Source of the DNA: Flaviflexus sp.
GTDB taxonomy: Bacteria > Actinomycetota > Actinomycetes > Actinomycetales > Actinomycetaceae
Reading direction: 5' to 3'
Length of the DNA: 64,000 nt
Assembly: GCA_030537635.1 (NCBI GenBank)
Contig: JAUNVM010000004.1
Span: 1 to 64,000, forward strand
The notes below the pieces were generated by a model, which saw nothing but the letters and a program-made list of their open reading frames with translations, did no database searches and was not told the DNA's origin. Below are positions 2,126 through 60,041 of the stretch, piece after piece (position 1 is the stretch's first letter; each line of letters begins with the position of its first letter). The position numbers were made by a program, and so were the translations under genes.

Positions 2126-3337
2126 ATGCGCACCTGGTCCGACGTTCCACTTCCCGAGCTGCCCGGGTCTTCCCAACCGGCGCGGATCGTGGAGTCGACC
2201 GGCTCCACCATTGTTCCGGATGGTCGCGCGCGGCTCTACGTGTGCGGCATTACGCCGTACGATGCGACGCATCTGGGCCACGCCTTCACCTACACCTGCT
2301 TCGACATGCTGCAGCGCCAGTGGCGCGACGCGGGCCTCGAGGTCACCTACGCCCAGAACGTCACCGATATTGATGACCCCCTCTTCGAGCGGGCCGCCGC
2401 CACGGGACAGGACCACCGTGAGCTAGCAGCTGAGCAGATCGACCTGTTCCGCTCCGACATGGAGCATCTGCGGGTGCTGCCGCCCGATCACTGGACCGCC
2501 GTGTCCGAGGTGCTCGATGATCTGGAGGCCGATGTGCGCAAGCTGAGCCTGGGCCCCGCCTATGAGCTGAACCAGGCCGGGCGCACCGATTACTTCCTGC
2601 CGACCTCCCCGGCCGATGTGGCCGGGCCGCGCTACCGAGACATCGACCTCGAGCAGGCCCTGCGTGAAACCGGCGAGGACCCGGACCTGCCCGGTAAGAG
2701 TGGCCGTCTCGACCAGCTCATTTGGCGGGGCGCGAAGGGTGAGGACTTCCGCGCCGAGGGGGAGGCCCCCGGGGCGTGGCGTCCCGGATGGCATATTGAA
2801 TGCGCGCGGATTGCGCTCAATGGCCTCGGCCCAATCATTGATGTTCAGGGCGGTGGAGCCGATCTTGTCTTCCCGCACCACTGCCTGTCCAATGTGGCGA
2901 TGACGGCGCTGGAGCCCGCCGCCGAGGTGCGCGGGCAGATGCACACGGGGCTGGTGGCTTACCGGGGCGAGAAGATGAGCAAGTCGCTGGGTAATCTCGA
3001 GCTCGTCTCCCGGCTGGTGAACAAGGGTAACGACCCCATGCTCATTCGGCTTCTTCTCATCGCCCACCGGTGGGATGAGGACTGGGAGTATACCGAAGCC
3101 GATCTTCAGGTGGCCGAACGTCGGCTCACTCGTTGGCGGAGAATGCGGCACACGGGCGGGGCCGGCGCCGCCGATCTCCTTGATGAAGTGCGCGACTGCC
3201 TCGCCGATAACCTCGACACGCCGCGCGCCCTCGCCGCCATCGATGCGCACGTGAAGGATAACGAGAACCGCGATGATCGCGCCGGCGCGCAGCTCTTCGC
3301 CGACATGTGCGACGCGCTGCTCGGGATCGCCCTGTGA
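2126..3337 (+). CDS. mshC: cysteine--1-D-myo-inosityl-glucosaminide ligase MshC
   Basis: MshC performs the ATP-dependent ligation of cysteine to GlcN-inositol, the penultimate step of mycothiol synthesis, and is a cysteinyl-tRNA synthetase paralogue. The 403-residue protein has zinc ligand Cys40 in YVCGITPYDATHLGH (HLGH, residues 49-52, is the HIGH signature), the WHIECARI and FPHH zinc/substrate motifs, and KMSKS at 283-287. CGITPYDATHLGH separates MshC from true CysS. The ATG at 2126 is preceded by GAAAGG. It is co-directional with uppP, and its stop overlaps the next start (GTGA). Its presence means this organism uses mycothiol as its low-molecular-weight thiol. Confidence 0.95.
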   Translation: MRTWSDVPLPELPGSSQPARIVESTGSTIVPDGRARLYVCGITPYDATHLGHAFTYTCFDMLQRQWRDAGLEVTYAQNVTDIDDPLFERAAATGQDHRELAAEQIDLFRSDMEHLRVLPPDHWTAVSEVLDDLEADVRKLSLGPAYELNQAGRTDYFLPTSPADVAGPRYRDIDLEQALRETGEDPDLPGKSGRLDQLIWRGAKGEDFRAEGEAPGAWRPGWHIECARIALNGLGPIIDVQGGGADLVFPHHCLSNVAMTALEPAAEVRGQMHTGLVAYRGEKMSKSLGNLELVSRLVNKGNDPMLIRLLLIAHRWDEDWEYTEADLQVAERRLTRWRRMRHTGGAGAADLLDEVRDCLADNLDTPRALAAIDAHVKDNENRDDRAGAQLFADMCDALLGIAL

Positions 3338-57787: not shown

Positions 57788-58687
57788 GTGAAGCTATTTA
57801 TTTATTCTGATACTGTCCTTCGTGCTAACTGCTACCTCTGGGTGAATACCGAGACCCAGCAGGCCCTCGTGGTGGACCCGGGTGCGGGTAGCGCGGACTG
57901 GGTGCGTACCAAGGCCGAGGCCGAGGGCGTCACCATTGCCGGGGTGCTGCTCACCCATGGGCATCCCGATCACGTGTGGGATGCCGCGGCGGTGGCCGGG
58001 GATAAACCCGTCTTCATTTCCGAGGCCGACCGTTATCGCCTCGATGATCCGATGAGCCACCTGCCGGCAGCGATGGGGGTGGTCATGGGACAGTGGACGC
58101 GTCCAGAGAATATTGAGACCATTCCCGCCCTGTGCCTCCAGGGTGGCGGAGCCCAGATCCTTCCGGGTTTCCCGGTCCGGGCCATCCCCGTGCCCGGCCA
58201 CACCGAGGGTTCGGTTGGTTACCTCACCGCCGGAATCCTCGAAGAGGGCGAAGGCGCGATCACGGTGTCGCGCGGCTGCGGCGGCGGCGGTGGCTGCGGC
58301 TGTGGCGGCGGTGGCTGCGGTGGCGGCAAGGGTCATGGCGGAGGCCAGGGTGGCTGCGGATGCGGCGGTGGGGGCTGTGCGGAGGAGCGCGATGCTGAGG
58401 CAGGCGGATGTGGCTGCGGCACGGACGAGTGCACCGAGGATGGTGCGGAGCCGCAGGACTCCGGCGAGCACGTGGGCCTCATCTTCCTTGGCGATGTGCT
58501 GCTTGGCGATTCGATTGGCCGCACCGACCTGCCGGGTGGAGATGAGAAGGAAATGAAGTCCACCTTGCGCATGCTCGCGGTGTCCATCGATCCGGCGACG
58601 GTGGTGGCGACCGGCCACGGCCCGCTCATGTCCTTTGAGTTCCAGCTCCAGTCCAACATGATGATGCGCAGGGCCCTGACGGAGTAG
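57788..58687 (+). CDS. metallo-beta-lactamase-fold hydrolase with Gly/Cys-rich insert
   Basis: A 299-residue glyoxalase II-like hydrolase. The metal-binding motif THGHPDH (56-62), His138 (GHTEGS), Asp236 (FLGDVLL) and His277 (TGHGPL) are all present, so the binuclear site should form. Between His138 and Asp236 the usual short strand-loop is expanded by about 65 residues (163-229), nearly half Gly, with ten Cys (164, 170, 172, 177, 190, 192, 197, 208, 210, 215) in GC-GC-type pairs plus one His. The reading frame is intact through the insert. Position before hisS matches the mycobacterial glyoxalase II gene. The insert may bind metal; no known domain is recognised. Confidence 0.9.
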   Translation: MKLFIYSDTVLRANCYLWVNTETQQALVVDPGAGSADWVRTKAEAEGVTIAGVLLTHGHPDHVWDAAAVAGDKPVFISEADRYRLDDPMSHLPAAMGVVMGQWTRPENIETIPALCLQGGGAQILPGFPVRAIPVPGHTEGSVGYLTAGILEEGEGAITVSRGCGGGGGCGCGGGGCGGGKGHGGGQGGCGCGGGGCAEERDAEAGGCGCGTDECTEDGAEPQDSGEHVGLIFLGDVLLGDSIGRTDLPGGDEKEMKSTLRMLAVSIDPATVVATGHGPLMSFEFQLQSNMMMRRALTE

Positions 58688-58730: not shown

Positions 58731-60041
58731 ATGGCCCGACACACCTCACTTTCCGGTTTTCCCGAATGGCTTCCGAGTAAGCAGCTCGTTGAAGACCAGG
58801 TCCTCGACCATCTCCGACGCTCCTTTGAGATACACGGGTTCTCGCCCGTCGTCACGCGGGCGGTGGAACCGGTGGAGCAGCTCTTGTCCAAGGGGGAGAC
58901 CTCCAAGGAAATCTATCTGCTCTCCCGGCTGCAGGCCGAGGAGAACGAGGATGCCCAGCTCGGCCTTCACTTCGACCACACGGTGCCGTTGGCCCGCTAC
59001 GTCGTGGAAAACGCCGGACATCTCACCTTCCCGTTCAAGCGCTATGCGATCGGCCGAGTGTGGCGAGGGGAGCGTCCCCAGGAAGGTCGCTTCCGCGAGT
59101 TCATTCAGGCCGACGTTGACGTGGTCGGGGATGGTCAGCTGGCCCTGCATCACGACCTCGAGCTGCCGCTGGTCATGGCAGATGCTCTGGGTTCGCTACC
59201 GCTTCCCAAGCTCACCATCCACACCTCGAACCGGAAGATCGCCCAGGGCTTCTACGAGGCCATCGGTATCGCCGATATTGCCGAGACCCTGCGGATCGTT
59301 GACAAGCTCGACAAGATTGGCCCGAAGGCGGTGGCCGAGCAGCTCGTCCAGTCCGGCACCACCGAGGAGCAGGCCAATCAGGCACTCGCCCTGGCCGAGA
59401 TCAGCGGCGGCGTCGAGGTGGCCGACCGGGTGCTCGCCCTGGGTGCGCGCTCGGAGCTGCTCGATGAGGGCCTCGACGAACTCGTCTACGTGCTCGAGGG
59501 TGGGCAGGAGATGTCTCCCGGCTCGATCGTCGCCGATCTCAAGATCGCCCGGGGCTTGGACTACTACACGGGCACCGTCTATGAATCGTTGCTTGAGGGC
59601 CACGAGGATCTCGGCGCCATCTGCTCCGGCGGGCGTTATGACTCGCTGGCCAGCTCCGGCAAGAAGACCTATCCCGGGGTGGGTCTGTCTATTGGCGTGT
59701 CCCGGATTCTCTCCCGCATGATCTCCTCGGAGGCGCTCACCGTCACCCGGCAAAGCCCAACCACCGTGCTCGTTGCCGTCTTGAACGAAGATCAGCGGCG
59801 CGAATCAGAGCTCATTGCTCGCGCCCTGCGCGCCCGTGGTATCGCCACCGATGTGTCCCCGGGCAGTCAGAAGCTCGGCAAGCAGATTCGGTACGCCGAT
59901 CGGCGCACCATCCCCTACGTGTGGTTCCCCGATTCAGGCGAGGTCAAGGATATTCGTTCCGGCGAGCAAATCCCGGCCGACCCCGAGACGTGGGTTCCCG
60001 CGCGCGAGGATATGCGCCCGATACTCATGGGGGAACAGTGA
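58731..60041 (+). CDS. hisS: histidine--tRNA ligase HisS
   Basis: HisS charges tRNA-His. The 436-residue class II synthetase has motif 2 (RYAIGRVWRGERPQEGRFRE), the histidine-specific IARGLDYYTGTVYE, motif 3 (GVGLSIGVSRIL) and a C-terminal anticodon-binding domain. The start lacks a ribosome-binding site and appears leaderless. Its stop overlaps the GTPase gene (GTGA). Confidence 0.94.
   Translation: MARHTSLSGFPEWLPSKQLVEDQVLDHLRRSFEIHGFSPVVTRAVEPVEQLLSKGETSKEIYLLSRLQAEENEDAQLGLHFDHTVPLARYVVENAGHLTFPFKRYAIGRVWRGERPQEGRFREFIQADVDVVGDGQLALHHDLELPLVMADALGSLPLPKLTIHTSNRKIAQGFYEAIGIADIAETLRIVDKLDKIGPKAVAEQLVQSGTTEEQANQALALAEISGGVEVADRVLALGARSELLDEGLDELVYVLEGGQEMSPGSIVADLKIARGLDYYTGTVYESLLEGHEDLGAICSGGRYDSLASSGKKTYPGVGLSIGVSRILSRMISSEALTVTRQSPTTVLVAVLNEDQRRESELIARALRARGIATDVSPGSQKLGKQIRYADRRTIPYVWFPDSGEVKDIRSGEQIPADPETWVPAREDMRPILMGEQ

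Follow-up and report, generated by a model that had tools for sequence, protein, structure and literature searches.

The closest described relatives of the enzyme considered here are YcbL (2XF4), BLEG-1 (7EV5), TTHA1623 (2ZWR/2ZZI) and S. aureus GloB (7L0B), single-domain hydrolases with which it shares the whole fold, all metal ligands and the lack of a C-terminal helical domain. In YcbL, the ligands His-132 and Asp-151 lie 19 residues apart (PMC8431146), whereas in the Flaviflexus protein the corresponding spacing is 98 residues and the intervening stretch is rich in Gly and Cys. The insertion already known from BLEG-1 and YcbL is elsewhere, in the N-terminal half near the metal site, unlike the Flaviflexus arm.

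Cysteine-bearing appendages are known from other proteins. The tail of SlyD is unstructured, rich in Cys and His, and binds up to seven Ni(II) (PMC7055735); like the arm, it is disordered, contains Cys, varies in length and is attached to a folded enzyme. However, the SlyD tail is C-terminal and rich in His, Asp and Glu, whereas the Flaviflexus arm is internal and made of Gly and Cys with one His, and its host is an MBL-fold hydrolase, not an FKBP/PPIase with a C-terminal His/Cys tail; the likeness is one of analogy only. MymT binds Cu(I) through Cys, and methylglyoxal lowers its Cu-thiolate luminescence (PMC10470581). MymT and the bacterial metallothioneins are likewise short Cys-rich stretches, but they are free small proteins, and no sequence match between them and the insert was found.

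The hydrolase gene and its product

The window is a 64,000-nucleotide stretch of a Flaviflexus genome, one that groups with Flaviflexus in our comparisons. The gene and its landmarks are as follows.

57788..58687, + strand: MBL-fold glyoxalase II-like hydrolase, 299 aa, GTG start (open reading frame; Pfam Lactamase_B; structure matches)
57956..57973, + strand: motif HGHPDH (residues 57-62) of metal ligands, unchanged across a 33-row alignment
58199..58201, + strand: metal ligand His138 (in PGHTEGS), invariant in the same alignment
58493..58495, + strand: metal ligand Asp236 (in GDVLL), invariant, on the strand returning from the hairpin (strand 229-239 of the model)
58616..58618, + strand: metal ligand His277 (in TGHG), invariant in the same alignment
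58731..60041, + strand: hisS, downstream neighbour of the hydrolase gene, in conserved context

The gene occupies the position of Rv2581c, upstream of hisS, and the same order is found in F. huanghaiensis (L075). The gene on the other side is divergent and presumably DUF349-like.

The 299-residue protein is a glyoxalase II-like hydrolase of the YcbL/TTHA1623 type. Pfam Lactamase_B matches it with an E-value of 5.6e-13, and H57, H59, D61, H62, H138, D236 and H277 are invariant in the 33 aligned rows. Together with the AlphaFold model described below, this bears out the proposal, made earlier from the sequence, of a glyoxalase II-like fold that keeps every metal ligand. The protein scores 46 bits against the classical hydroxyacylglutathione hydrolase profile TIGR03413, the cut-off of which is 200.8, and thioesterase action on lactoylglutathione or its mycothiol analogue is putative. 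Where most relatives beyond the genus have PGHG as the final ligand motif, the Flaviflexus hydrolases have TGHG. Cys116, which lies outside the loop discussed below, is common to all six Flaviflexus hydrolases.

A glycine- and cysteine-rich insert

Between His138 and Asp236, the frame carries a Gly/Cys-rich stretch in which most of the cysteines fall into three short units.

58277..58432, + strand: Gly/Cys segment, residues 164-215, from the first to the last Cys (translation; pLDDT below 50 for most residues)
58289..58318, + strand: unit 1, GGCGCGGGGC, residues 168-177
58349..58378, + strand: unit 2, GGCGCGGGGC, residues 188-197
58403..58432, + strand: unit 3, GGCGCGTDEC, residues 206-215

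Of the 52 residues of the segment, 10 are Cys, 28 are Gly and 1 is His; the wider stretch 58268-58477 translates into 70 residues, among them 32 Gly, 2 His and the same 10 Cys. This stretch is covered by the open reading frame, and its description in the sequence-only reading as an in-frame Gly/Cys insert was correct. The ten cysteines between His138 and Asp236 were also correctly counted; the extra length, put at about 65 residues, is nearer 60, as the stretch from PGH to the GD motif counts 104 residues here and 41-45 in most of the relatives.

The units follow the pattern GGCGCGxxxC, and successive units are offset by 20 and 18 residues. Between units 1 and 2, 5 of the 30 bases have changed, every one at a synonymous third position (p about 0.002 if changes were random), and unit 3 has TDE in place of GGG before its last Cys while its three Cys are unchanged. 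Residues 163-199 contain no Ser, Arg, Asp or Val, and Gly is replaced there mainly by Cys. When the same residues were shuffled 20,000 times, three CxCx4C units turned up 14 times, for a motif that was picked after the sequence had been seen.

These features bear on the idea that the insert of this species owes its length mostly to tolerated growth of a GC-rich repeat in a surface loop, with little function beyond an ancestral four-Cys core. The insert DNA is indeed made of GGC/GGT-rich repeats with periods of 6, 9, 18 and 21, loop length varies within the hydrolase family, and the direction of the change in length is not fixed (see below). But units 1 and 2 have diverged by synonymous changes only, unit 3 has retained its cysteines in spite of the TDE replacement, Cys is favoured over the other one-step neighbours of Gly, and three such units are rare among the shuffles. 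We consider this explanation unlikely. The insert can also be read as an open Ala-, Arg- or Pro-rich peptide in other frames or on the other strand, as is expected of GC-rich repeats, and coding there was rejected.

That no described domain resembles the insert, as had been claimed, was upheld by our searches: neither Pfam nor NCBIfam gave a match, the best PDB sequence match had an E-value of 0.42, and a known domain as the identity of the insert is ruled out to that extent. The insert searched alone against Pfam and NCBIfam hit no family, metallothionein families included, and literature searches on Flaviflexus, on Rv2581c and on Cys-rich MBL inserts turned up no mention of it.

Position of the insert in the predicted structure

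An AlphaFold model of the protein was built with the 33-row alignment. The MBL fold is predicted with pLDDT above 90, whereas residues 164-180 and 182-215 fall below 50. The models show the alpha-beta/beta-alpha fold of MBL proteins without a C-terminal helical domain, and the closest solved structures (Foldseek/VIA) are TTHA1623, BLEG-1, YcbL and S. aureus GloB, onto which the F. massiliensis model superimposes with VIA Z scores of 25-26 and an rmsd of 1.9-2.2 over about 200 residues. The frame is open throughout, and Asp236 and His277 are kept, in agreement with the earlier view that there is no frameshift and that the fold resumes cleanly past the insert.

The model has strand 143-149 running out from His138 and strand 229-239 running back to Asp236. 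Given this layout, the insert would hang from a hairpin away from the active site, and is predicted to be disordered without metal and anchored on that hairpin. Judging from the strand length, somewhere around 20 angstroms would separate the hairpin from the metals. By default, therefore, the insert is not read as directly catalytic.

Distribution, ancestry and selection

The genus set comprised the genome of the window and five other Flaviflexus genomes (G001-G005); the named relatives are F. massiliensis (L037) and F. huanghaiensis (L075). All five carry an insert in the same loop, shorter than that of the window species, with four invariant Cys spaced C-x3/4-C-x2-C-x-C and a core that reads GCGGGGC[DE]GC[DN]CG, or GCGGGCDGCDCG in G002. 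The four align to Cys172, Cys177, Cys190 and Cys192 of the window protein. Hence the prospect, raised in the sequence-only reading, of close relatives lacking the insert did not materialize: the cysteine chemistry is the same in each of them.

Outside the genus the picture is different. The hydrolase family is present in 212 of 213 genomes searched, the loop having been read at fetched loci only; in about 85 loops from other genera, mostly Actinomycetaceae, the insert is absent, and the loop mostly has 41-45 residues with 0-2 Cys. The Actinomycetaceae orthologues beside hisS show 33-44% identity outside the genus and their ligands are invariant, but they differ in having this short, Cys-poor loop. 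What is common to the genus is the four-Cys core, with a loop that exceeds that of other genera by about 18 residues; the ten-Cys length is peculiar to the window species.

These relatives also bear on whether the G-rich stretch might be an assembly or sequencing error. The genome is a draft in 45 contigs and the repeat is GC-rich, which would favour an error, but the frame stays open, the repeats differ from one another in sequence, and five independent genomes, of which three are single-contig assemblies, carry a shorter homologous insert. The relatives' inserts and the divergence of the repeats speak against a frameshift or misassembly, and we regard an error as extremely unlikely.

In a tree computed with the loop removed, Flaviflexus forms one clade (100/100), and the window protein is placed next to the other five (96/92). 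The simplest reading would be a single origin of the insert, on the genus stem, with an ancestral count of either four or ten Cys; because of this placement of the window protein, the direction of the change in loop length is not fixed. The genus stem branch of the hydrolase is unusually long (0.93 changes per column).

Between pairs of the four relatives with equal core length, core differences at codon positions 1, 2 and 3 number 3, 0 and 42, that is, 38 synonymous to 6 nonsynonymous codon differences, against 955 synonymous to 484 nonsynonymous over the whole gene in five relatives; counts from such pairs lack independence, and Gly codons raise the number of synonymous changes. Since 42 of the 45 changes fall at third positions, the peptide encoded by the insert is under selection. 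The four Cys are constant in the six Flaviflexus species, and the surrounding loop residues vary. These comparisons confirm, at the level of sequence, a real loop that selection has held across the genus.

A proposed thiolate metal-binding arm

Metal loading, a redox switch and thiol transfer had been put forward as possible functions from the sequence, and metal binding seems to us the best of the three. We would give roughly even odds, about 0.5, to the Gly/Cys arm being a flexible thiolate metal-binding arm that buffers or loads zinc or copper. On this proposal, a YcbL-type hydrolase in the lineage that gave rise to Flaviflexus would have acquired the arm, which sits in the hairpin linking the strand that follows His138 to the one that carries Asp236. 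Its clustered thiolates, four genus-wide and ten in the window species, would bind soft metals, most likely Zn(II) or Cu(I), and the arm would fold upon binding. It could thereby keep metal near the enzyme, either loading and maintaining the enzyme's own binuclear site or buffering cellular metal, in the manner of the disordered Cys/His tail of SlyD or of a small metallothionein fused in line. Metal binding, the identity of the metal and transfer to the active site are steps that we infer.

A disordered, Gly-rich arm with clusters of CxC and Cx4C thiols is suited to soft metals. Other points in favour are the four invariant Cys, the selection on the peptide, the purely synonymous differences between units 1 and 2, the preference for Cys among the neighbours of Gly, and apo models that leave the insert disordered while the fold is confident; Gly/Cys/His modules (GCGCGGHGH) occur, moreover, in a small protein encoded next to ribF in the same family. 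Against it, searches of Pfam, NCBIfam and PDB sequences brought up no metal-binding profile or structure for the insert, the segment 164-215 has one His only, and the conserved Cys are equally suited to a redox or an Fe-S role. The hairpin also starts at least 7 strand residues from Asp236, so that direct delivery of metal would require the arm to fold back.

The main rival is a thiol or aldehyde-reactive arm, whose cysteines would pair in disulfides, bear persulfide or mycothiol, or capture aldehydes of the methylglyoxal type, and so protect or regulate the hydrolase. Enzymes of this class act on thioesters arising from aldehyde detoxification, vicinal CxC pairs make good dithiols, and the dimming by methylglyoxal of the Cu-thiolate luminescence of MymT has been read as aldehyde attack on Cys (PMC10470581). 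The earlier statement that the organism has mycothiol stands in part only. In favour of this rival, MshD matches at 177.6 bits, over a cut-off of 163.1, and an MshC-like gene is present in the window:

2129-3334 of the window: MshC-like gene, 408 bits, under the 485-bit cut-off

The search for MshA gave no match over its cut-off, the best scoring 125.6 against 462.5, which tells against this rival. In addition, the flexible, Gly-dense spacing and up to ten Cys exceed the needs of a switch, and no partner protein was identified. We hold this alternative to be not very likely. Taken together, the scores of the three Msh proteins may mean that the mycothiol pathway of Flaviflexus is divergent.

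The four-Cys core might also hold an iron-sulfur cluster of small size. Plant-type [2Fe-2S] ferredoxins have loop cysteines spaced C-x4-C-x2-C, with a fourth Cys further off, and C-x4-C-x2-C-x-C is found in four of the five relatives. But one species (L002) has C-x3-C-x2, the aligned cysteines of the window species are spaced C-x4-C-x12-C-x-C, and the models predict no ferredoxin-like fold, all of which makes a cluster very unlikely.

Lastly, metal binding and aldehyde reactivity might be combined. The arm would then be a metallothionein-like thiolate centre coupling metal or aldehyde status to activity: attack of methylglyoxal or oxidants on its Cys would release arm metal to the binuclear site, or cause it to be lost. 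This we consider distinctly unlikely; if true, an enzyme of the glyoxalase pathway would sense its own stress through the arm.

Related elements elsewhere

All six Flaviflexus and many other Actinomycetaceae (L142-L146, L156-L160, L165 and L167-L190) have a short Gly/Cys/His-rich reading frame immediately upstream of ribF. The products, of 36 to about 100 aa, consist of GCGCGG(HGH)n modules and a C-terminal SEGRxQLGLR motif. A profile of them matches in 67 of the 213 genomes of the family, some of the matches being other proteins, and ribF is next door in most loci read. Neither Pfam nor NCBIfam matches these proteins, which form an undescribed family of probable metal-binding peptides. In the window species, the protein has shrunk to 36 aa, MAENKGCGCGCGCGEKKQEAKRPENGREDLGLKQKK, with GCGCGCGCG only:

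G000:C43:21571-21681, approximately (L152): small protein of the window species, 36 aa

These proteins share GCGCGG units and Gly-rich spacers with the insert but differ in being encoded by a separate gene, in their many His and in the SEGRxQLGLR motif. Derivation of the insert from them is attractive, a long insert being accompanied by a shrunken protein, but the score of the insert against them (81.3) was equalled or exceeded in 123 of 2,000 shuffles, a likeness not beyond composition, and the inverse relation concerns one species; this origin was not retained.

DUF2249 proteins of another Actinomycetaceae genus carry a GCGCGD-type element before the domain (L183, L185, L187, L191, L192). 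A genome-wide search with the GCGCG DNA pattern gave about as many control matches as real ones and is useful for leads only; the C-GGGG-C pattern was specific. GCGCGG-type Gly/Cys units thus recur in several unrelated actinobacterial proteins, including the small protein next to ribF.

Implications

The insert may best be viewed as a variation on a known kind of enzyme, a genus-wide and selected feature with a putative function. A housekeeping hydrolase has gained, in line, a conserved multi-cysteine arm that can be dated to one genus, its close relatives outside that genus being without it. Relatives with and without the arm form a before-and-after pair in which one may test how a metalloenzyme acquires a metal or thiol buffer of its own.
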